DNA of 35,480 bases, from contig JAFTBN010000045.1 in assembly GCA_017455185.1 (NCBI GenBank), positions 1 through 35,480 on the forward strand. The letters run 5' to 3'. Made by a program: the position numbers and the translations under genes. The stretch is from Clostridia bacterium. Its GTDB lineage: Bacteria > Bacillota > Clostridia > Oscillospirales > CAG-272. Shown piece after piece: positions 1 through 20,913 of the stretch; the first letter of the stretch is position 1; each line of letters begins with the position of its first letter. The notes under the pieces are model-generated. The model saw only the letters and a program-made list of their open reading frames with translations, did not search any database and was not told the DNA's origin.

Positions 1-1
1 T

Positions 2-118
2 GGAAGACCACGAATTCGTCCTTTGCCTGACCCAAATGCACCAAAGAGACATGTTGGCAGACCACGTAAAGATGAAGTGTTAACCAAAAATGAAACCGAC
101 GATGACAAGGCCCTATAG
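2..118 (+). CDS. C-terminal end of an AT-hook-like protein (partial)
   Basis: An open frame enters from the left edge and ends at TAG (116-118), leaving 38 residues. It begins GRPRIRPLPD and contains a second VGRPRKDE segment followed by an acidic end (ETDDDKAL). Two GRPR cores with flanking basic residues and prolines resemble AT-hook minor-groove DNA-binding motifs. Such tails occur on bacterial DNA-binding proteins, but the catalytic or folded part lies outside the window, so no function can be given. The frame could also be chance, since only 38 codons are seen, but the repeated GRPR core argues for a real tail. Confidence 0.5.
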   Translation, partial: GRPRIRPLPDPNAPKRHVGRPRKDEVLTKNETDDDKAL

Positions 119-138
119 TACAAAAATTTGGGAAATTA

Positions 139-390
139 TTACTGTAACACTTCTGCTGTTTTATCGTTTGAAAACTTTTTTTTCGTAATATCCCGATAGA
201 CGGCTTTTACGTCGGATCGATTTAATTCATTTGCAATTGCAAAGGCCGTAGAGCCAATCACTATGGCCAGGGTTAAGCATATTGCCAAAACTTTCCATCC
301 AAATCTGCGGGATGGCTTTTTGGATTCTTGCAATGACGTTTCAAGTTCGCCGTGTAAAGAATCTGTTTGTTGAGATTGTTTCAAATTCAT
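139..390 (-). CDS. Small single-pass membrane protein, unknown function
   Basis: 83 residues. The ATG at 390 is preceded by an excellent ribosome binding site (AGAAGGAGG, 6 nt upstream of the start). The first 30 residues are polar and basic at the end (KKPSRR), followed by one hydrophobic helix (about residues 32-53, VLAICLTLAIVIG) and a charged outer segment of about 30 residues. This is the layout of a small type II membrane protein or an uncleaved signal anchor. It lies 77 nt downstream of the secreted hydrolase-like gene on the same strand, with no visible terminator between them, so co-transcription is likely. I do not recognise a family. Confidence 0.6.
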   Translation of the reverse strand: MNLKQSQQTDSLHGELETSLQESKKPSRRFGWKVLAICLTLAIVIGSTAFAIANELNRSDVKAVYRDITKKKFSNDKTAEVLQ

Positions 391-467
391 GAAATGCCTC
401 CTTCTGCATATGGTTCAATTTGTGTTCGTTTGTGCGTGAATTTTCCAGATACATGGTTGTTTTTGCG

Positions 468-1988
468 TTAGAGTAGAACTGGCAAATGACATTGTGTAGT
501 TTCGTTAGCAAGTGGTTCAAATGCTTCATTGGCATTTACATACTGATCATTGACAAAAGCAGTGAACAGATTAACATCAAATCCCTCTAAAATTTGAATG
601 ACATTGGTTTCATTAGACGGGGTTGGCTCGTCATCATCATATAGGATTTGGTATGCTTCGCCTGAGCAAAAATAGCCGTCCTGATCTAGGAAGAATGAAG
701 CTCCGCCAATTTGAAACCAGTATCCGGTCAGTTTCGGGGAATAGGGATGAGATTCCAGTTCTTCTTTTGTTGCATCGCGCAATGTGCAATGGTTGATCAT
801 ATCACAGAAAGAATGGATCGCCGCCTCGTCTTGGATCAGACGACCTTCCAGTACGGAGTCAAACCTGGAACGTATGTATGCCTTGACTGGGTAATCCAGG
901 ATGATTTTGTTTGGATCAACGGTCTGCCCCTTAAATCCGCATTGATAGCATCTGCCGGTCATTGGGTTTATCGAGTGTGATTCCAGTTGAGAATAGGCGC
1001 AATCCGTGCAAAGACGTCGGTGCTGATACTGATTGACCGGGGAGTAAGTGATGGTATGTGGAACGGATGCGATATAGTACAGGCAGTCGGAGCAGTCCAC
1101 TCGGTGAGAGGAAGAATTCAATGGCGACGTATAGAGGTCGTGAATGCAGGGCGTATAGGCAAAAAGTGAAAAATCTGAATAGTTCGGCAAATAGTATGGG
1201 CAATTGGTTGCAGCATGCTCGTACAAACCATAAGATCCCCATTTTGACAGGAGGACTGTCCCTGCGAGGGTTCCATCGGTTGAAAGAATGACGGCAGAAT
1301 GTTGTTCTGTTCCGTTGTAGTAATAAACAAGAATGTCACCGGCGGAGCAAGTTGAAGTGCTATGATAGCAGTCGCTTTTCAAAGTGGACGGATAGTTGAG
1401 CCAATAGGAGTTTGTTGAGCTTGAATCATACCACGCATATGAGTGACAATTGTATCGACCTGTTGCGCTTCGATGATAAATGGCGTCAGGATAGACTGAA
1501 GCAACTTCTGCATTCATGGTGGCTATTTCCTCGTTTGAGAAATCGCTGGTGCAAAGCAGGGCGGAGACGGAAAAGCCGGAAGGAGTATTAATTGTTGCTG
1601 AAGCATAGGTGGGTGACGATTTTGGAGCATGCAGACCTAAAACTTTGAAAAGAAGGGCTTGAAAGAAGTTGCACTGTAAGCCAGTGCGGTTTTCCTGCTT
1701 TGTTAGGACCGCCTGCAAGTCTTCTCTTTGCATTAATTCAGAAAAAGCTTCCGATTTTTGCAGCAATTGATCGTAACCGACTTTTGAATCTTCATAGAAG
1801 GCAAGAAGGTGGATGTCGGGAGAGTCGAGAACGAAAGCAAAAAGAGCTTCGGTGCTCATATTTTTCGGGTTGCATGAGTTGGATTGGTCGTTTTCTTCGT
1901 GGGCCGAAAAAACAGAACTGACGGAAATGGTCAAAAAGGCAAGCAGAAGTGTAAAGCAAAGAAAAGCCTTTGATTTTGTTTTGTACAT
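468..1988 (-). CDS. Secreted protein with NCHSYAW-type Cys/His hydrolase-like domain and CxxC pairs
   Basis: 506 residues from the ATG at 1988, chosen over an in-frame start 42 nt upstream because AAGGAG lies just before it and a signal peptide then starts at residue 1 (basic MYKTKSK, a hydrophobic core to about residue 26, and a probable cleavage site after VFSA). Residues about 170-280 hold RYNCHSYAW (Cys181, His182), GDILVYY, QHSAVI (His230) and SKWGSYGLYEH. This arrangement suits a papain-like NlpC/P60 or CHAP-like amidase or peptidase fold, but that is inference. Residues 281-352 carry several Cys/His pairs (CSDC, CTDC, CYQC) that look like small zinc or disulfide modules. The last 150 residues are unrecognised. 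It lies downstream of blaR1 with a 118-nt gap. Cell-wall or envelope action is plausible but unproven. Confidence 0.7.
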   Translation of the reverse strand: MYKTKSKAFLCFTLLLAFLTISVSSVFSAHEENDQSNSCNPKNMSTEALFAFVLDSPDIHLLAFYEDSKVGYDQLLQKSEAFSELMQREDLQAVLTKQENRTGLQCNFFQALLFKVLGLHAPKSSPTYASATINTPSGFSVSALLCTSDFSNEEIATMNAEVASVYPDAIYHRSATGRYNCHSYAWYDSSSTNSYWLNYPSTLKSDCYHSTSTCSAGDILVYYYNGTEQHSAVILSTDGTLAGTVLLSKWGSYGLYEHAATNCPYYLPNYSDFSLFAYTPCIHDLYTSPLNSSSHRVDCSDCLYYIASVPHTITYSPVNQYQHRRLCTDCAYSQLESHSINPMTGRCYQCGFKGQTVDPNKIILDYPVKAYIRSRFDSVLEGRLIQDEAAIHSFCDMINHCTLRDATKEELESHPYSPKLTGYWFQIGGASFFLDQDGYFCSGEAYQILYDDDEPTPSNETNVIQILEGFDVNLFTAFVNDQYVNANEAFEPLANETTQCHLPVLL

Positions 1989-2022
1989 AAAAATCTCCTT
2001 CTTGTCGAATATTTGGCAGAAT

Positions 2023-2039
2023 ACTACCACCTCAGTAGT
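2023..2039 (-). promoter_or_regulatory. ACTAC/GTAGT dyad upstream of the secreted protein gene
   Basis: A 5-bp inverted repeat (ACTAC, 7 nt, GTAGT) sits about 35 nt upstream of the start codon at 1988. The half-site resembles those seen in BlaI/MecI operators, and a BlaI homologue is encoded next door. I see no good -35/-10 pair around it, so its role is uncertain. Confidence 0.25.
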
Positions 2040-2106
2040 TGGCGGGATGAAATCCGCTTTCTTTTTTGTGGTTTTTCAAGTTTGAAACTTGGGCTGTCGG
2101 ATAATA

Positions 2107-3018
2107 TTATGCTGCATTAGTCAGTAACATGTAGGATATGACAGCAATCAAAAGACCAAAGCCAATGGCTGAAGCTACTGTCATTTTTTTATAGGAGATG
2201 ACGTGTTCAATTCTGGTTCTGATTTTTGCGCCGCCGAATGATGCCGCAAACAGTGTTTTGTTCTCCTGAACATCAAGTAGTGCGAGAGCATATTCTTTTT
2301 GCTTGTTTTTTGGCAGTTTGGATAGCGCTGATTCATCGCATGCCAATTCGATGTCCGAAAGGAATGTTTTCAAGAAGATCCAAACAAACGGATTGAACCA
2401 GTGGATCGCTGCCGTTACAAGCGCGAGGATCCGCCAAAAGTTATCGCCTCTGCGGATGTGTCTTGTTTCATGAAGCACGACGAGTTCAAGCTTTTCGGAG
2501 TCTTTCATGAAATCAGGAATGATAATGCGAGGTCGGATTATTCCATATACTGCAGGTGTATTTACCTTTTTCGAGCAGTATACGCGGTCATAGAGGTGTT
2601 TTGCGTCTTTCAGTTCAAAAAGCGTGTTGATATAAATGATTGTAAGGGTCGTACATATTGCAATCGCGATTATGGCCCATACGATGGCGCCATATATGAA
2701 AACATCTGCGAGCAGAGGCGTCTTGTATGCGAGAGGAAAATAATCGTTTGCGGCCATAATGGCATTTGAAAGCGAAAAACTCGTTAATCCGTTATTGTAA
2801 ATGACAACGGTTCGGGTCGTAAATTGGGACAGAAGTGTCATAAGTCCGTATTTGCTTCCGATCCCGATCGGAAGCCAGAATCGTAAGAGCGGGATTGCCC
2901 AAAGAACGACGATGATCCGACGCGGGATCTTTTTGATCATTCGTATCAGCATGACAATGGCCCCTGTCAGTGATGCGATGATGCTCATATTAAGCAACCA
3001 GTAAAACAGTTCGTCCAT
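2107..3018 (-). CDS. BlaR1-like M56 family membrane metallopeptidase, short form
   Basis: 303 residues. The family transmits an envelope signal by cleaving, or triggering cleavage of, the partner BlaI repressor. Hydrophobic segments lie near residues 4-26, 33-52, 104-131, 195-219 and 282-299. The zinc protease motif HETRH is at residues 183-187, followed by ELACDES (224-230), the usual position of the third ligand. Classical BlaR1 and MecR1 are about 590 residues with a C-terminal penicillin-binding sensor domain. That domain is absent here, so the signal must come from the membrane part, the external loop (about residues 60-100) or another protein. The start lies 3 nt after the BlaI stop, which indicates translational coupling. 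Confidence 0.85.
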   Translation of the reverse strand: MDELFYWLLNMSIIASLTGAIVMLIRMIKKIPRRIIVVLWAIPLLRFWLPIGIGSKYGLMTLLSQFTTRTVVIYNNGLTSFSLSNAIMAANDYFPLAYKTPLLADVFIYGAIVWAIIAIAICTTLTIIYINTLFELKDAKHLYDRVYCSKKVNTPAVYGIIRPRIIIPDFMKDSEKLELVVLHETRHIRRGDNFWRILALVTAAIHWFNPFVWIFLKTFLSDIELACDESALSKLPKNKQKEYALALLDVQENKTLFAASFGGAKIRTRIEHVISYKKMTVASAIGFGLLIAVISYMLLTNAA

Positions 3019-3021
3019 GGT

Positions 3022-3372
3022 TCATTCTTTGTCAATCAATTTGCGCAGTTCGGCGATTTCAGATTCTGAAAGAGGCTTGTCTTCGAGCAGGGCGGAAAAC
3101 AAGGCTTTTCTGGATCCATCAAACAGTCTGTCTATGAGTCCGATCGCTTCGCTTTTTTGCGCATCTTCCTTTTTTACGATAGTCGTGCAAATGAAACCGG
3201 GGTCCTCTCTTTTTACGTAACCTTTTTCAATTGCTTTCTTGATGATGGTATAGGTCGTGTTTTTATTCCAGCCTATCGTTTTGTCTGCAATCAAACTGAT
3301 CTCTTTTGCACTGATCGGCTCGTTTTGCCAAATGATTTCCAATAACTTAATTTCACTGTCAAAAAGTTTCAT
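3022..3372 (-). CDS. BlaI/MecI/CopY family transcriptional repressor
   Basis: 116 residues, full length for the family (about 115-130). Residues 1-70 form the winged helix: LFDSEIKLLEIIWQN, then AKEISLIADKTIGW, then the recognition part NKNTTYTIIKKAIEKGYV and the wing KREDPG. The C-terminal part (SEAIGLIDRLFDGS... to the end) matches the helical dimerisation and cleavage region. It is the first gene of a minus-strand group with the M56 protease. Its own promoter (3403-3431) carries two dyads, consistent with autorepression relieved by BlaR1-dependent proteolysis. A ribosome binding site (GGAGG) precedes the ATG. Confidence 0.9.
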   Translation of the reverse strand: MKLFDSEIKLLEIIWQNEPISAKEISLIADKTIGWNKNTTYTIIKKAIEKGYVKREDPGFICTTIVKKEDAQKSEAIGLIDRLFDGSRKALFSALLEDKPLSESEIAELRKLIDKE

Positions 3373-3384
3373 AAAAAAGCCTCC

Positions 3385-3402
3385 GGACTATTTCTATAGT
3401 CC
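3385..3402 (-). promoter_or_regulatory. Probable BlaI operator, downstream site
   Basis: A perfect 7-bp inverted repeat, GGACTAT-4 nt-ATAGTCC, lies between the -10 element and the ribosome binding site of the BlaI-type gene and overlaps the expected transcription start. Position and symmetry fit an autorepression operator. Confidence 0.6.
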
Positions 3403-3431
3403 ATTCTACTGCAATAGTCTGCAGTTGTCAA
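3403..3431 (-). promoter_or_regulatory. Sigma-A promoter of the blaI-blaR1 group, with an internal dyad
   Basis: Minus-strand TTGACA (3426-3431), a 17-bp spacer and TAGAAT (3403-3408). The spacer is almost exactly a second dyad, ACTGCA-6 nt-TGCAGT (3408-3425). Its central ATAGTC matches the half-site of the downstream operator, so a repressor bound here would block both promoter elements. Confidence 0.75.
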
Positions 3432-3476
3432 GAGGTTTTTTAAAAAAATCTTTTTGTGTTCATGAACAGTGAAACT

Positions 3477-3494
3477 GCCCGCATTTGCGCGGGC
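3477..3494. terminator. Short GC-rich hairpin in the divergent intergenic region
   Basis: GCCCGC-6 nt-GCGGGC, with no clean T-run on either strand. The 328-bp gap between the BlaI gene and the permease gene holds this hairpin and the two divergent promoters. I see no gene in it. Confidence 0.25.
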
Positions 3495-3603
3495 TGTGTT
3501 CGTTCAAGGGTAGTATCCTATTCGGATAATGGATTACATGTTTCTGTACAGAAATATCTATATTCTTCTCTGCAGGTTTCTGTTAACACGAGGCCGAAAA
3601 GGC

Positions 3604-3632
3604 TTGACATCGGATGGCTCTGACCGTATAAT
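3604..3632 (+). promoter_or_regulatory. Perfect consensus sigma-A promoter of the permease gene
   Basis: TTGACA (3604-3609), 17-bp spacer, TATAAT (3627-3632). Transcription should start near 3639, giving a leader of about 60 nt before the ATG at 3701. Confidence 0.85.
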
Positions 3633-3700
3633 GGGACGCGTACACAGGCGGGAACCGAGGTTTTTGCCTGCTTTATTTCAGTCTGTCCGGAAGAGAGAGT

Positions 3701-4648
3701 ATGTATTACTATTTTCTTTTGTTTCTGGCCGTTGTCGGCATTGTGATAACGTTCTGCCTTGGGAAGAAATATCAACTGATCCTTCACGGAACCACCGAAA
3801 GCGTGTATTTGCGGATGCTGGCGGTTTCGGTGGCAGAATTCCCGATTTTTTTAGCCATCGCCAATTTTAAAATCCGGTTTGACGGGTACATGCTGATTCT
3901 GTCCTCGATTCTGGCTTTGATTGCCTTGATCAGCATGCTGATTACCCTGGCCGCCTATTCAAAGGGAAACATGATTATCTATACCATGTTCCAGATGGCG
4001 GGCGGAATGCTTCTGCCGTTCGTGTACGGCATCGCATACGGAAACAACTTGTCCGTTTGGAGAATCATCGGAATCGTTTTGATGGTGTTCGCCTTGATTT
4101 TCTCGGTGTTCAAGGAACTCAGGGAGGCTTTCGGAACCGGAGATCGGAAAGGCCGGATCTTTTTGCTTCTGTGCGTTGCCATTTTCTTCGTAAACGGTTC
4201 GACCAGCATCGTGTCCTATATTTATGCCAATGGGATTTACGCCGCGAGCGACTACACCCCCGAGACCGGCGCTTTTCTGGTTGTCAACCGGATTGTCACG
4301 ATTGTCTTCTCGCTGGTCGGTCTTGGCTTGGTTGCGCTGATGCACCGCGGGAAGCCCAAGGAACCATCCCTGGATTCCAAGGGAAATCTGATGAGCGTCA
4401 AACGGGTGGTCGGATGGTGTCTGCTGCTGTTTTTGCTGATGGCCGGTGTGGACGGAGTCAGCGCCTATCTGCAGCTGATCTCGGCGTCAGCCATTCCGGC
4501 GGTCGCCATCTATCCGATCATTACGGGAGGAACGGTCGTGCTGACCGGCATTGCCGGATTTGTCTTCTTCCATGAGAAGGTGACCAAGCGTGCCGTTGTC
4601 AGCATCATCCTGACGTTCCTTTCTACGGTTCTGTTCGTTTTCGAATAA
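3701..4648 (+). CDS. DMT superfamily (EamA-like) membrane transporter
   Basis: 315 residues with about ten hydrophobic helices and very short loops, in two similar halves separated near residues 145-150 (charged linker FGTGDRKGR). That is the usual 10-TM layout of drug/metabolite transporters, built from two EamA repeats. The final helices (VVLTGIAGFVFFHEKVTKRA, then a last helix) match the typical EamA ending with FFxEK. The substrate cannot be told from sequence. The gene is monocistronic, with a consensus promoter about 70 nt upstream and a strong terminator directly after the stop. A purine-rich GGAAGAGAGAG precedes the ATG. Confidence 0.8.
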   Translation: MYYYFLLFLAVVGIVITFCLGKKYQLILHGTTESVYLRMLAVSVAEFPIFLAIANFKIRFDGYMLILSSILALIALISMLITLAAYSKGNMIIYTMFQMAGGMLLPFVYGIAYGNNLSVWRIIGIVLMVFALIFSVFKELREAFGTGDRKGRIFLLLCVAIFFVNGSTSIVSYIYANGIYAASDYTPETGAFLVVNRIVTIVFSLVGLGLVALMHRGKPKEPSLDSKGNLMSVKRVVGWCLLLFLLMAGVDGVSAYLQLISASAIPAVAIYPIITGGTVVLTGIAGFVFFHEKVTKRAVVSIILTFLSTVLFVFE

Positions 4649-4650
4649 GA

Positions 4651-4694
4651 AAAACAGCATCCCTGACCTGTCCGGTCCCGGATGCTGTTTTTTG
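4651..4694. terminator. Bidirectional rho-independent terminator
   Basis: A 12-bp perfect stem (AAAACAGCATCC with GGATGCTGTTTT), with a smaller GACC/GGTC stem in the loop and T-runs on both strands. It ends the plus-strand permease transcript and the convergent minus-strand metal ATPase operon. Confidence 0.9.
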
Positions 4695-4717
4695 CCTGCA
4701 CGCTGGCAGGGCAGCTT

Positions 4718-6652
4718 TTATGCTTTTTTCGAGGAATAATGCAATGTGCGCATGGCGTTGAGCACGGCCAGGACGCACACGCCTACGTCGGCGAAGATGG
4801 CCATCCACATCTGTCCGAATCCCAGGGCGGTCAGCAGAAGAACCGCAAATTTGACGCCCAGGGCAAAGACGACGTTTTCCCACACGATCCTGCGGGTGAA
4901 GCGCGCAATGCGGATTGCCTTGACCAGCTGGGAAAGGGAATCGTTCATCAGGACGATGTCGGCGGCTTCTATGGCCGCGTCCGATCCGAGGGCACCCATG
5001 GCGATGCCTACGTCCGCCCGGGTGATGACCGGTGCGTCATTCACTCCGTCCCCCGCAAAGAGCAGTTTGCCGCGGGGGTTCTTTTCTTTCATCCGTTCCA
5101 TCTCTTCGGTCAGGGCACGGACTTTGTCCTCAGGCAGAAGCTGTGCCCGGAATGCGTCGATACCGGTCTTGTGCGCGACATCCGCGGCGGTCTCCTCCCG
5201 GTCGCCGGTGAGCATGACGACGGGCCGGACGCCCAGCTCATGCAGTTCGTTCACGACCTGCGCCGCCTCCGGCTTGAGTTCATCCCGGATGACCGCATAG
5301 CCCGCATAGACGCCGTCCACGGCCATGTGCGCGACGGACCCGCATTCGACAGGTTCAGCGGGTGTAAGACCCGCTTCCGCCATCAGGTCGGCGTTCCCGA
5401 TCAGGACGGCATGTCCCGCAACCTGTGCGCGGATGCCGCGGGCATGGGCGGTCGTGACGTCCTCCATGCTTTGAACGTCTCGGGCTTCCGGTTCTTTTCC
5501 GTATGCCTGGCGGAAAGCCAGCGCAATCGGGTGGGAAGAGGAGGCTTCAGCGTGTGCCGCATAGTACAGGAAGCGCTCTTCGTCGATTCCTTCGGGATGC
5601 AGCGCGTCCACGGCGAAATTACCTTTGGTCAGCGTGCCGGTCTTGTCAATGCAGAGAACCGAGGCAGAGGCCAGATCCTCCAGATGATTGCTTCCCTTGA
5701 CCAGGATGCCTTTGGCGGACGCTCCGCCGATTCCGCCGAAATAGGAAAGCGGAATGGAAATAACCAAAGCGCAGGGGCAGGAAACGACCAAAAAGGTCAG
5801 GGCCCGCTTGATCCAGTCTCCCCATACAGGGGCATTCCCGGCTGCCAGGATGACGAGCGGGGGAAGAATGGCTAGAGCCAAAGCGGAGAAAACGACGACG
5901 GGGGTGTACCAGCGGGCGAATTTCGTGATGAAGTTTTCGCTCTTGGATTTGTTTGAGCTGGCGTTTTCCACCAATTCCAGGATCTTGGAGACCGTGGACT
6001 GCCCGAACGTCTTGGTCACGCGTACATGGAGCAGGCCGGTCTGGTTGATGGAGCCGGACAGAACCGGGTCGGACTCCCGGACCTGCTGCGGGCGGGATTC
6101 GCCCGTCAGGGCACTGGTGTCCACCGTGGATTGTCCCTGAAGAACGACGCCGTCCAGCGGGATTTTTTCGCCGGGCCGCACCACAATGACCTGTCCGATC
6201 TGAATCTCGTCCGGGTCGGTCTGCTCAAAACTTCCGTCCTCGAGCAGAAGATTCGCGCTGTCCGGACGGATATCCATCAGGGACGCGATGTTTTTGCGGC
6301 TCTTTCCGACCGCGATGCTCTGGAAGAACTCTCCAACCTGATAGAACAGCATGACGAACACGGCTTCGGCGTATTCGGGCTCCATATCGGGGAAGAACCC
6401 GATGGCAAGAGCACCCAGCGTCGCGACGGTCATCAGGAATTTTTCACTGAACACCTGACCGTGCCCGATGTTTTTGAAGGCGGTCAGGAGCACGTCGTAT
6501 CCGATCAGGAAGTAGGGAACAAGATACAAAAGCAGCCAGACGAACCAGGGCAGGTCCGGAAAGGCGCCCGCCTTGTCCGGAATCAGGACTGCCAGGAGCA
6601 GAACGGCGCTGACAATGATGCGAAACAGACGCTTTTTTTGCTTTCTTGTCAT
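4718..6652 (-). CDS. cadA: P1B-2 type heavy-metal (Zn/Cd/Pb) translocating ATPase
   Basis: 644 residues. The protein exports divalent soft metals at the cost of ATP. Visible motifs are TGES (183-186, actuator), the CPC metal site in a membrane helix (292-294), DKTGTLT with phosphorylated Asp336, SSSHPIA (the HP locus of P1B enzymes, 374-375) and GDGVNDAP (534-541). Near the end, Lys in ALGVKFAV and Asp in IFADVG are the residues expected in the zinc/cadmium/lead subgroup rather than the copper subgroup. The N-terminus starts directly with membrane helices. The HMA domain usual in CadA/ZntA is missing and is encoded as a separate gene 4 nt upstream. The neighbouring ArsR-type sensor supports metal-inducible resistance. 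Confidence 0.93.
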   Translation of the reverse strand: MTRKQKKRLFRIIVSAVLLLAVLIPDKAGAFPDLPWFVWLLLYLVPYFLIGYDVLLTAFKNIGHGQVFSEKFLMTVATLGALAIGFFPDMEPEYAEAVFVMLFYQVGEFFQSIAVGKSRKNIASLMDIRPDSANLLLEDGSFEQTDPDEIQIGQVIVVRPGEKIPLDGVVLQGQSTVDTSALTGESRPQQVRESDPVLSGSINQTGLLHVRVTKTFGQSTVSKILELVENASSNKSKSENFITKFARWYTPVVVFSALALAILPPLVILAAGNAPVWGDWIKRALTFLVVSCPCALVISIPLSYFGGIGGASAKGILVKGSNHLEDLASASVLCIDKTGTLTKGNFAVDALHPEGIDEERFLYYAAHAEASSSHPIALAFRQAYGKEPEARDVQSMEDVTTAHARGIRAQVAGHAVLIGNADLMAEAGLTPAEPVECGSVAHMAVDGVYAGYAVIRDELKPEAAQVVNELHELGVRPVVMLTGDREETAADVAHKTGIDAFRAQLLPEDKVRALTEEMERMKEKNPRGKLLFAGDGVNDAPVITRADVGIAMGALGSDAAIEAADIVLMNDSLSQLVKAIRIARFTRRIVWENVVFALGVKFAVLLLTALGFGQMWMAIFADVGVCVLAVLNAMRTLHYSSKKA

Positions 6653-20459: not shown

Positions 20460-20653
20460 GAGCGACTGAATTGAATACCATGTCGGTGGAAGCTCTGGAA
20501 GCCAAGCTTCAGGATCTGAAGACTGAGCTGTTCAACCTCAGATTCCAACATACGACCAATCAGCTGGACAATCCGCATAAGCTGACAGACGTAAAACGGG
20601 ACATCGCCCGTGTGATGACCGTTCTTCAGCAGAAGAAATCGAAGGAGGCTTAA
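20456..20653 (+). CDS. rpmC: 50S ribosomal protein L29
   Basis: 65 residues, two helices ([34 protein letters not shown]... [14 protein letters not shown]). It lies at the tunnel exit beside L23. ATGA overlap with rplP and one-base overlap with rpsQ show tight coupling. Confidence 0.96.
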
Positions 20654-20913
20654 TGATGGAAGAGAGAGCACTGAGAAAGACCAGAGTCGGTATCGTTTCC
20701 AGTGATAAGATGGACAAGACCATTGTAGTCTCCATCGAAGACAATGTGAAGCATCCCGCTTTCGGTAAGATTATTAAACACACCCTGAAAGTTCATGCAC
20801 ATGACGAAAAGAACGAGTGTGGTGTCGGTGATAAAGTCGAAATCATGGAAACCCGTCCTTTGTCCAAGACAAAGAGATGGAGACTGGTTCGCATCATCGA
20901 AAAGGCTAAGTAA
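20653..20913 (+). CDS. rpsQ: 30S ribosomal protein S17
   Basis: 86 residues from the first of two adjacent ATGs. The GAAGGAGG site is nearest to the first. S17 is a primary 16S-binding OB-fold protein: [57 protein letters not shown]. Followed by a 68-nt spacer with a hairpin. Confidence 0.97.

Follow-up and report, generated by a model that had tools for sequence, protein, structure and literature searches.

A BlaI and short M56 protease switch without a beta-lactam sensor precedes a putative secreted cysteine hydrolase in a Clostridia genome

Results

In the 35,480-nucleotide stretch of DNA analysed here (the window), a BlaI-type repressor and a shortened BlaR1-type M56 metalloprotease are followed on the same strand by the gene of a secreted protein. 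The pair belongs to a separate branch of the BlaI/BlaR1 system, carried by gut clostridia, in which the protease ends after its final membrane helix. We hold with moderate confidence that it forms an autoregulated operon on a sensor-less BlaR1-type switch, which would drive the window's papain-like cysteine hydrolase by read-through.

Four ORFs occupy positions 139–3372, all on the minus strand and at the positions first assigned to them. The winged-helix repressor BlaI (116 aa, 3022–3372) matches Pfam PF03965 Penicillinase_R with 75.5 bits (E 5.6e-21, cut-off 22.6), and the 303-aa M56 protease (2107–3018), which starts 3 nt past the blaI stop, matches PF05569 Peptidase_M56 with 133.8 bits (E 9.3e-39). 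The original prediction had described four genes on one strand, among them a BlaI repressor and an M56 protease lacking the beta-lactam-binding domain, with no beta-lactamase beside them. These points were confirmed: Pfam identifies no penicillin-binding sensor or transpeptidase domain of the BlaR1/MecR1 kind in the protease, and no beta-lactamase was seen by eye among the ORFs of 1–6652. The fourth ORF (83 aa, 139–390), which has a single hydrophobic segment at residues 29–56, had been counted as a one-helix member of the module. This assignment was not sustained, as the protein matches the N-terminal part of a membrane protein of about 495 aa; a paralogue in its own genome lies at C61, and the ORF is probably a truncated paralogue or remnant.

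The short form of the protease recurs in relatives. Among 246 genomes of the family, 34 matches scored above 150 bits, in 33 genomes, and the group is set off by a score gap, the next match (147 bits) lying in a 1266-aa frame; searches of viral contigs and of plasmids gave no matches. The short members measure 297–320 aa (48 full-length sequences, aligned; five rows that were fragments or split frames were dropped from the tree). The gluzincin signature of BlaR1/MecR1, HEXXH plus ExxxD, is present in the window protein (HEXXH at 183–187, E224xxxD228) and is kept in all 48 (H183, E184, H187, E224, D228), as is a loop phenylalanine (Phe261, in the window's S260-F261); in 45 of them the residue before it is A, P or S. 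In the window protein the final hydrophobic segment (278–303) runs to the C-terminus at residue 303.

A sigma-A-type promoter with tandem operators lies upstream of blaI on the minus strand (3384–3431, promoter score 11 of 12), so that a putative dyad operator stands at the repressor's own promoter, as expected of a BlaI/MecI system. The -35 element is TTGACA (3426–3431) and the -10 element TAGAAT (3403–3408); the first operator runs downwards from 3419, and the perfect palindrome GACTATAGAAATAGTC occupies 3386–3401. A 48-column matrix made from 29 loci other than the window gives the window promoter-operator a score of 57.5, lower than that of 26 of the 29 members (range 29.2–82.3). The promoter-operator pattern fits 29 of 35 blaI upstream stretches, the six off-pattern ones being the window (its -10 differs), L096, L179, L197, L199 (at a contig edge) and L200. 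By eye, and under the matrix threshold, an operator can be seen before blaI in L179, and a second, partial one in L096. In the window's own genome the pattern has just two matches, the window site and one before an M56 remnant and a lipoprotein gene (C60), while the control pattern has none. Across the family, 33 distinct operator sites were found in 32 of the 246 genomes (34 rows, against 2 rows for the control). Two sites (G060, G012) precede lipoprotein genes leading into blaI-M56, and another (G110) precedes a lone lipoprotein gene. Since 29 of the 33 sites, the window's included, lie directly 5′ of blaI at 23–52 bp, the switch would mainly control its own operon and the cargo within it. 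The tandem operators are strongly conserved in relatives and, as far as sequence can tell, resemble the tested BlaI operators of Clostridium thermocellum.

The cargo of the switch differs among loci, often being a membrane protein of about 320 aa and small lipoproteins (loci read by eye were added to the cargo walk for the tally of the former; the walk halts at antisense ORFs, so that cargo was missed in several loci). The hydrolase is a minority cargo: in the family sample it was found at one of 34 short-M56 loci, namely the window, several loci ending soon past M56, and in the class sample at none of 17. The operon might also be a beta-lactam response in disguise, in which wall damage would induce BlaI/M56 and the hydrolase or membrane proteins would aid survival. 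This has been proposed for BlaI regulons of C. thermocellum in the available parts of one report (PMC8457756), and BlaI/MecI can, according to another, be bound by a peptidoglycan dipeptide that weakens its hold on DNA (PMC3305447). However, the short M56 lacks the penicillin-binding domain, and neither a beta-lactamase nor a PBP was found among nine cargo proteins scanned with Pfam or, by eye, among the downstream ORFs inspected. We therefore consider a beta-lactam response possible but improbable.

Pairing of the switch with the hydrolase family was examined from the hydrolase side in 80 of 222 relatives (78 loci, with DNA up to 8 kb on each side). No BlaI/M56 was present at 76 of the 78, nor at any of 13 family loci, L016–L028 (8 of the 13 carry the motif NC..[YFW]A, and four appear identical to L044, L049, L056 and L061). 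The two remaining loci, L095 and L096, were reached through this hydrolase search and not through the M56 search; L095 has the same gene order and strand as the window, and L096 carries an operator scoring 62.3 directly 5′ of the hydrolase gene. Thus the co-occurrence sought by the original prediction exists, in two further loci, but is absent from most of the hydrolase loci examined. In trees the three pairings did not cluster, shuffles being equally low in 500 of 500, and the trees cannot separate repeated gain from gain followed by loss.

In the window, the M56 and secreted genes are separated by a 118-bp gap (1989–2106); at several other loci, by contrast, the cargo gene overlaps M56. The operator matrix has no match in the gap, and no promoter-like or terminator-like sites are listed there on the minus strand. 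An inverted repeat, ACTAC-N7-GTAGT at 2023–2039, was discarded as an operator of the secreted gene, having the wrong spacing and no match to the matrix. Because no operator precedes the secreted gene, its control in the window would be by read-through, and we infer co-transcription with blaI and M56. The claim that BlaI/M56 controls an envelope hydrolase thus stands in part: the operators are of BlaI type and one lies directly before the hydrolase gene in L096, but the window's secreted gene has none of its own and the hydrolase is seldom the cargo. The hydrolase could alternatively be an independently transcribed gene that happens to lie just downstream of an autoregulated blaI-M56 pair. The gap, the missing operator and the rarity of the pairing (2 of 78 hydrolase loci, the window not counted) are compatible with such an accident. 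Nevertheless, a rough expectation for chance (78 x 33/246 x 10 kb/2.2 Mb x 1/2 for the same strand) is about 0.02 loci against the 2 seen, both pairings involve the short subfamily on the same strand, and the L096 operator immediately precedes the hydrolase gene; we regard an accidental neighbourhood as unlikely.

The secreted protein (506 aa, 468–1988; start taken as the ATG at 1988, not the GTG at 2030) comprises a signal-peptide-like N-terminus with a hydrophobic segment at residues 5–30, a helical N-terminal region, a Cys-His domain, Cys/His-rich repeats and a C-terminal region. As originally described, it carries NCHSYAW (residues 180–186) and CxxC pairs (CSDC, CTDC, CYQC). It matched no family at useful E-values in Pfam, NCBIfam or PHROGs and nothing in viral contigs, and a single-sequence PDB search returned chance matches only. 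Matches occurred in 11 of the 246 family genomes, its own included, those in G227 and G125 being confined to the Cys/His-rich repeats.

The domain (residues 122–286, 1131–1625) has a predicted fold resembling that of NlpC/P60-CHAP cysteine hydrolases, and the Cys-His active site expected of it has candidates in C181 and H230; the domain also contains S248, K249 and H258. The AlphaFold2 model has a pLDDT of 94.4 and a pTM of 0.88. Its matches in VIA were consistently enzymes of the NlpC/P60-CHAP kind, the best with a Z of 6.2 and an rmsd of 3.5 over 97 residues, although a Z near 6 may mean no more than a common arrangement, and in Foldseek it had no match at E ≤ 0.001 (best E 0.12). The full-length model did slightly less well, with tudor domains at useless scores in Foldseek and NlpC/P60 enzymes at Z up to 5.8 in VIA. 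A profile search found LytE with the C and H aligned (E 0.026); from E 0.21 upwards its list also includes unrelated RNA-binding domains. The family motif is NC[HY]S[YF]A[WF]..HS..SKWG..H. The family alignment (A4) comprises the window and 67 of 85 domain ORFs, after exclusion by choice of fragments, one masked row and several others. C181 and H230 are invariant. The scan pattern contained [YF]NC[HY]S[YF]A[WF], so that the invariance of N180, C181, S183 and A185 follows from selection; W196, H230, S231, S248 and K249 lie outside it. Of 15 domains compared with Pfam, five matched CHAP (PF05257) at 19.1–23.3 bits, all below the cut-off of 26, and six matched DUF7689 (PF24738) at 13.8–24.2 bits, with only the L022 domain (24.2) over the cut-off of 22.6; the window domain matched neither. 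Because L022 exceeds the cut-off, the family could be a remote branch of DUF7689, for which a literature search by name found no paper.

The C-terminal region (residues 373–483, 540–872) is homologous to a separate lipoprotein encoded 14 bp after the hydrolase gene at the nearest relative, L034 (blastp 31% over 111 columns, E 1e-10, pairwise; phmmer E 5.6e-6 among 6853 ORFs). A different family of about 180 aa, of which the one member inspected has a lipobox, adjoins 8 of the 78 hydrolase loci, and L035 has six ORFs of the hydrolase kind. Some members come from genomes labelled Mycoplasmatota, a group that generally has no peptidoglycan; therefore, cleavage of the cell's own wall is not the sole role of the family. 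These four observations would suit an effector-like hydrolase directed against other cells and induced by envelope attack, with the C-terminal region or lipoprotein as its keeper, but a fused keeper would be unusual and the N-terminus resembles an ordinary signal peptide; we rate this reading as the least probable.

Discussion

We propose that BlaI occupies the two tandem operators overlapping the -10 and start region of the blaI promoter, as suggested by their sequence and by the C. thermocellum operators. By analogy with BlaR1, the short M56 would be a membrane-embedded zinc protease whose active site faces the cytoplasm. It would receive an envelope signal, perhaps via the outer loop that links helices 2 and 3 and is conserved (N85, Y93, P95), and then cut itself and/or BlaI. 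Derepression would lead to transcription of blaI, M56 and, through read-through, the next gene, which in many relatives is the membrane protein of about 320 aa and/or a lipoprotein and in the window would encode a secreted cysteine amidohydrolase or peptidase with a papain-like fold of the NlpC/P60-CHAP type. We call it "envelope-directed" on account of its predicted fold and signal-peptide-like N-terminus; the likeliest substrate would be a cell-envelope amide bond, e.g., in a peptidoglycan stem peptide. A broader and rather doubtful extension is that the short M56 proteases of Clostridia make up their own class of BlaR1-like receptors, sensing by the outer loop instead of a penicillin-binding domain, within a portable promoter-plus-receptor cassette whose envelope cargo has been repeatedly exchanged, and that muropeptide products of the window hydrolase could act back on BlaI and so close a loop.

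Pairs of BlaI and M56 are generally regarded as regulators of beta-lactam resistance, and a subfamily without the drug sensor cautions against resistance-gene labels. The conserved promoter-operator may be used for listing targets of the switch. Together with cargo that points to the envelope, these features make it directly testable what short M56 proteases sense. The cargo hydrolase comes from a family that has hardly been described and whose candidate active site is clear. In the accessible literature on BlaI/M56 operons, sensor-less BlaR1 and BlaI with NlpC, mostly titles and abstracts, we found no description of this system.

Its closest counterpart is the BlaI_1845 operon of C. thermocellum, which according to the available sections of the report encodes BlaI, BlaR1 and two hypothetical proteins, is autoregulated and constitutes the regulon of its own repressor (PMC8457756). 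Four GACTAT sites, forming two inverted pairs before that operon, were tested there by EMSA, and the window shares this arrangement of half-sites in a BlaI/BlaR1-type operon. In contrast, those authors read their system as a beta-lactam response, and the same sections name no hydrolase of the window family. With the staphylococcal BlaI-BlaR1 and MecI-MecR1 systems the window shares a BlaI-type repressor and an M56 gluzincin with HEXXH and ExxxD, and the loop Phe would correspond to the BlaR1 self-cut position, before Phe284, as given in the accessible part of that work (PMC9834060). The window pair differs from them in lacking the extracellular penicillin-binding sensor, and no beta-lactamase or PBP2a target was seen. 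Relatives of the window domain show profile likeness to DUF7689 around the Cys motif. The window domain would resemble the NlpC/P60 and CHAP hydrolases (LytE, MepS, SagA, CwlO) in its predicted fold, with the Cys at a helix start and the His on a following strand, whereas the window family has a motif of its own and all 15 domains fall under the Pfam CHAP cut-off.

Genes and Composition of the Module

The module at 139-3372 was originally predicted to comprise a BlaI repressor, an M56 protease, a secreted protein and a small protein, and this was borne out. All four genes lie on the minus strand: blaI (3022-3372), the M56 protease gene (303 aa, 2107-3018), the secreted protein gene (506 aa, 468-1988) and an 83-aa ORF (139-390). 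BlaI and M56 are supported by Pfam matches well over the cut-off, and the Pfam scan found no family in the secreted protein or the 83-aa ORF. The window represents one whole contig, C16, and the G+C content of the module is 43.2% vs. 52.1% in 3701-35480. Residues 21-58 and 55-83 of the 83-aa ORF match, in collinear fashion, the N-terminal region of a frame of 495 aa on contig C61 of the same genome, and matches were found in 36 of 246 family genomes including this one, mostly within frames of ~450-680 aa. Judging by these alignments, the ORF looks like a shortened copy of a longer protein. At the contig start a plus-strand ORF runs off the edge; its C-terminal end (2-118) contains GRPRI and GRPRK stretches.

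A Sensor-Less Switch With Variable Cargo

The idea that the BlaI/M56 pair controls an envelope-directed hydrolase was partly right: we find a sensor-less switch with envelope cargo, of which the predicted papain-like secreted hydrolase is just one. Genes downstream of the switch differ between loci. In a set of 36 switch loci (the window, L095, L096 and 33 family loci), clustering placed a ~320-aa membrane protein in 13, and five more were recognized by eye (L176, L190, L192, L198, and L199); the same protein occurs in 11 of 17 loci from the wider class. One lipoprotein family is present in 7/36 loci and a second, of larger lipoproteins, in 4/36. Eight of nine cargo proteins scanned had no Pfam family at E <= 0.01, the ninth, from L096, being a solute-binding protein. 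The NCHSYAW protein (the putative secreted hydrolase) is cargo in the window, in L095 (blaI, M56, and hydrolase on one strand) and in L096 (hydrolase, 110-aa secreted protein, 748-aa lipoprotein, blaI, and M56 on one strand). In L096 a full operator precedes the hydrolase gene (matrix score 62.3), and blaI is preceded by a -35-like TTGACA and one palindrome, seen by eye and below the matrix threshold. In G073, a genome of the same genus, the cargo behind the switch is a secreted protein of 859 aa (L179:1547-4126) that bears an NCYGYAL motif. A Pfam scan gave it no family, and its likeness to the NCHSYAW protein is limited to the motif.

The Promoter-Operator

TTGACA-N6-GACTATTGTGATAGTATAGACTATAGnAATAGTC or a variant of it precedes blaI in 29 of the 35 upstream stretches compared, the exceptions being those of the window (TAGAAT for TAGTAT), L096, L179, L197, L199 (contig edge), and L200. 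With a matrix built from the 29 fitting stretches, the window being left out, the window operator (3384-3431, minus strand) scores 57.5, lower than 26 of the 29 members. Within 1.61 Mb of loci, matches of at least 40 were confined to blaI promoters, the L096 hydrolase gene, the operon starts of L197 and L200, and contig C60 of the window's genome; those scoring 18-40 were other-strand readings of sites or, in L188 and L202, blaI promoters. Pattern searches returned two matches in the window's genome and none for the control pattern; 32 of 246 family genomes gave 34 rows, corresponding to 33 distinct sites, vs. 2 control rows. Of these sites, 29 directly precede blaI. The operators of G060 and G012 precede lipoprotein genes followed by blaI-M56, that of G110 a lipoprotein gene alone, and that of C60 a remnant M56 gene plus the beginning of a lipoprotein gene. 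In the class set, the stretch ahead of M56 reaches a matrix score of at least 25 in 10/17 loci. PMC8457756 describes GACTAT as the half-site of C. thermocellum BlaI_1845, with four copies in two inverted pairs preceding its own operon and binding tested by EMSA.

At the C60 site (20553-20843; L205:8554-8844), a mismatch-free promoter-operator leads straight into the final ~80 codons of an M56 gene of the short type, after which a lipoprotein gene starts near the contig end. This looks like a deletion that would have left cargo under the operator, or possibly an assembly artefact. In G110 (contig C62, L224:1489-2199) the operator directly precedes a 197-aa lipoprotein gene, and no BlaI gene was found in the surrounding 3-kb stretch; this gene is perhaps a target in trans.

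Linkage of Switch and Hydrolase

BlaI/M56 genes were found at two of the 78 hydrolase loci and at none of the 13 family loci (L016-L028); therefore, most members examined are regulated otherwise. No operator lies directly ahead of the window's secreted gene. With so few targets of the switch elsewhere, the simplest reading is that this gene would be transcribed by read-through from 3431. The three hydrolase pairings need at least three changes on the M56 tree and at least two on the hydrolase tree, for which the bootstrap had not settled. These changes fit repeated pairing of switch and hydrolase. Alternatively, a gain of the pairing may have been followed by losses. Shuffled labels do as well as the real pairings on both trees (500/500 each).

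The Putative Secreted Hydrolase

N180, C181, H182, S183, A185, W196, H230, S231, S248, and K249 are kept in 68 hydrolase sequences, N180, C181, S183, and A185 being invariant by selection, as [YF]NC[HY]S[YF]A[WF] was in the selection pattern. H258 is kept in 66/68, and one relative outside the set (L024) has Tyr at H182. The domain model (mean pLDDT 94.4, pTM 0.88) aligned best with NlpC/P60 enzymes in VIA-align, led by 2evr (Z 6.2, rmsd 3.5, 97 residues) and followed by SagA, LytE, MepS, CwlO, and C. difficile autolysins, with CHAP and Tae amidases lower; Foldseek returned nothing at E <= 0.001. In a profile-based sequence search, C181 and H230 fall on the Cys and His of LytE (E 0.026); chance RNA-binding-domain matches appear from E 0.21 up. 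Among 15 domains, five match the CHAP profile, none over the cut-off, and six match DUF7689, L022 alone over the cut-off; the window domain matches neither. S248, K249, or H258 could be the third catalytic residue. In L034 the gene of the nearest relative is followed, 14 bp on, by a lipoprotein gene whose product matches residues 373-483 of the window protein; such a split-and-fused pair suggests that the two parts act together at the membrane.

NCHSYAW-domain proteins also occur in genomes labelled Mycoplasmatota (L039, L040, and L099), a group that as a rule lacks peptidoglycan, and in others labelled Bacteroidota, Planctomycetota, Pseudomonadota, and Actinomycetota. One contig carries six consecutive NCHSYAW-type ORFs (L035:923-9926). 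By eye, a single frame in L019 (7368-8897; apparently the same gene in L061) combines an NCHSYAW domain with CxxC pairs, membrane helices and a putative XRE-type helix-turn-helix, resembling a fusion of regulator and effector.

The Short M56 Protease

The window M56 query gave 34 matches >150 bits in 33 of 246 family genomes, whose open frames span 203-370 aa; one of them contains an in-frame TGA and three are apparently cut by contig ends. Below this group the scores drop to 147 bits, and from there on long frames prevail. Across the class, matches at E <= 1e-45 occur in 18 of 391 genomes, the window's own included. The window's genome also contains a second BlaI/M56 pair (contig C78, 6843-9241; L206), whose 638-aa M56 continues beyond the protease domain with Listeria-Bacteroides repeats and leucine-rich repeats of the BspA type. 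Full-length short members (n = 48) are 297-320 aa long. H183, E184, H187, E224, D228, the loop Phe261, and R269 are kept in all 48, as are N85 and P95, and Y93 in 47. The last hydrophobic segment of the window M56 (278-303) coincides with the protein end, and the protein is therefore without a sensor domain. According to the structure paper PMC9834060, BlaR1 has HEXXH and ExxxD motifs and an N-out, C-out topology, and it cuts itself between Ser283 and Phe284. By analogy with that topology, residues 56-99 of the window M56 would lie outside.
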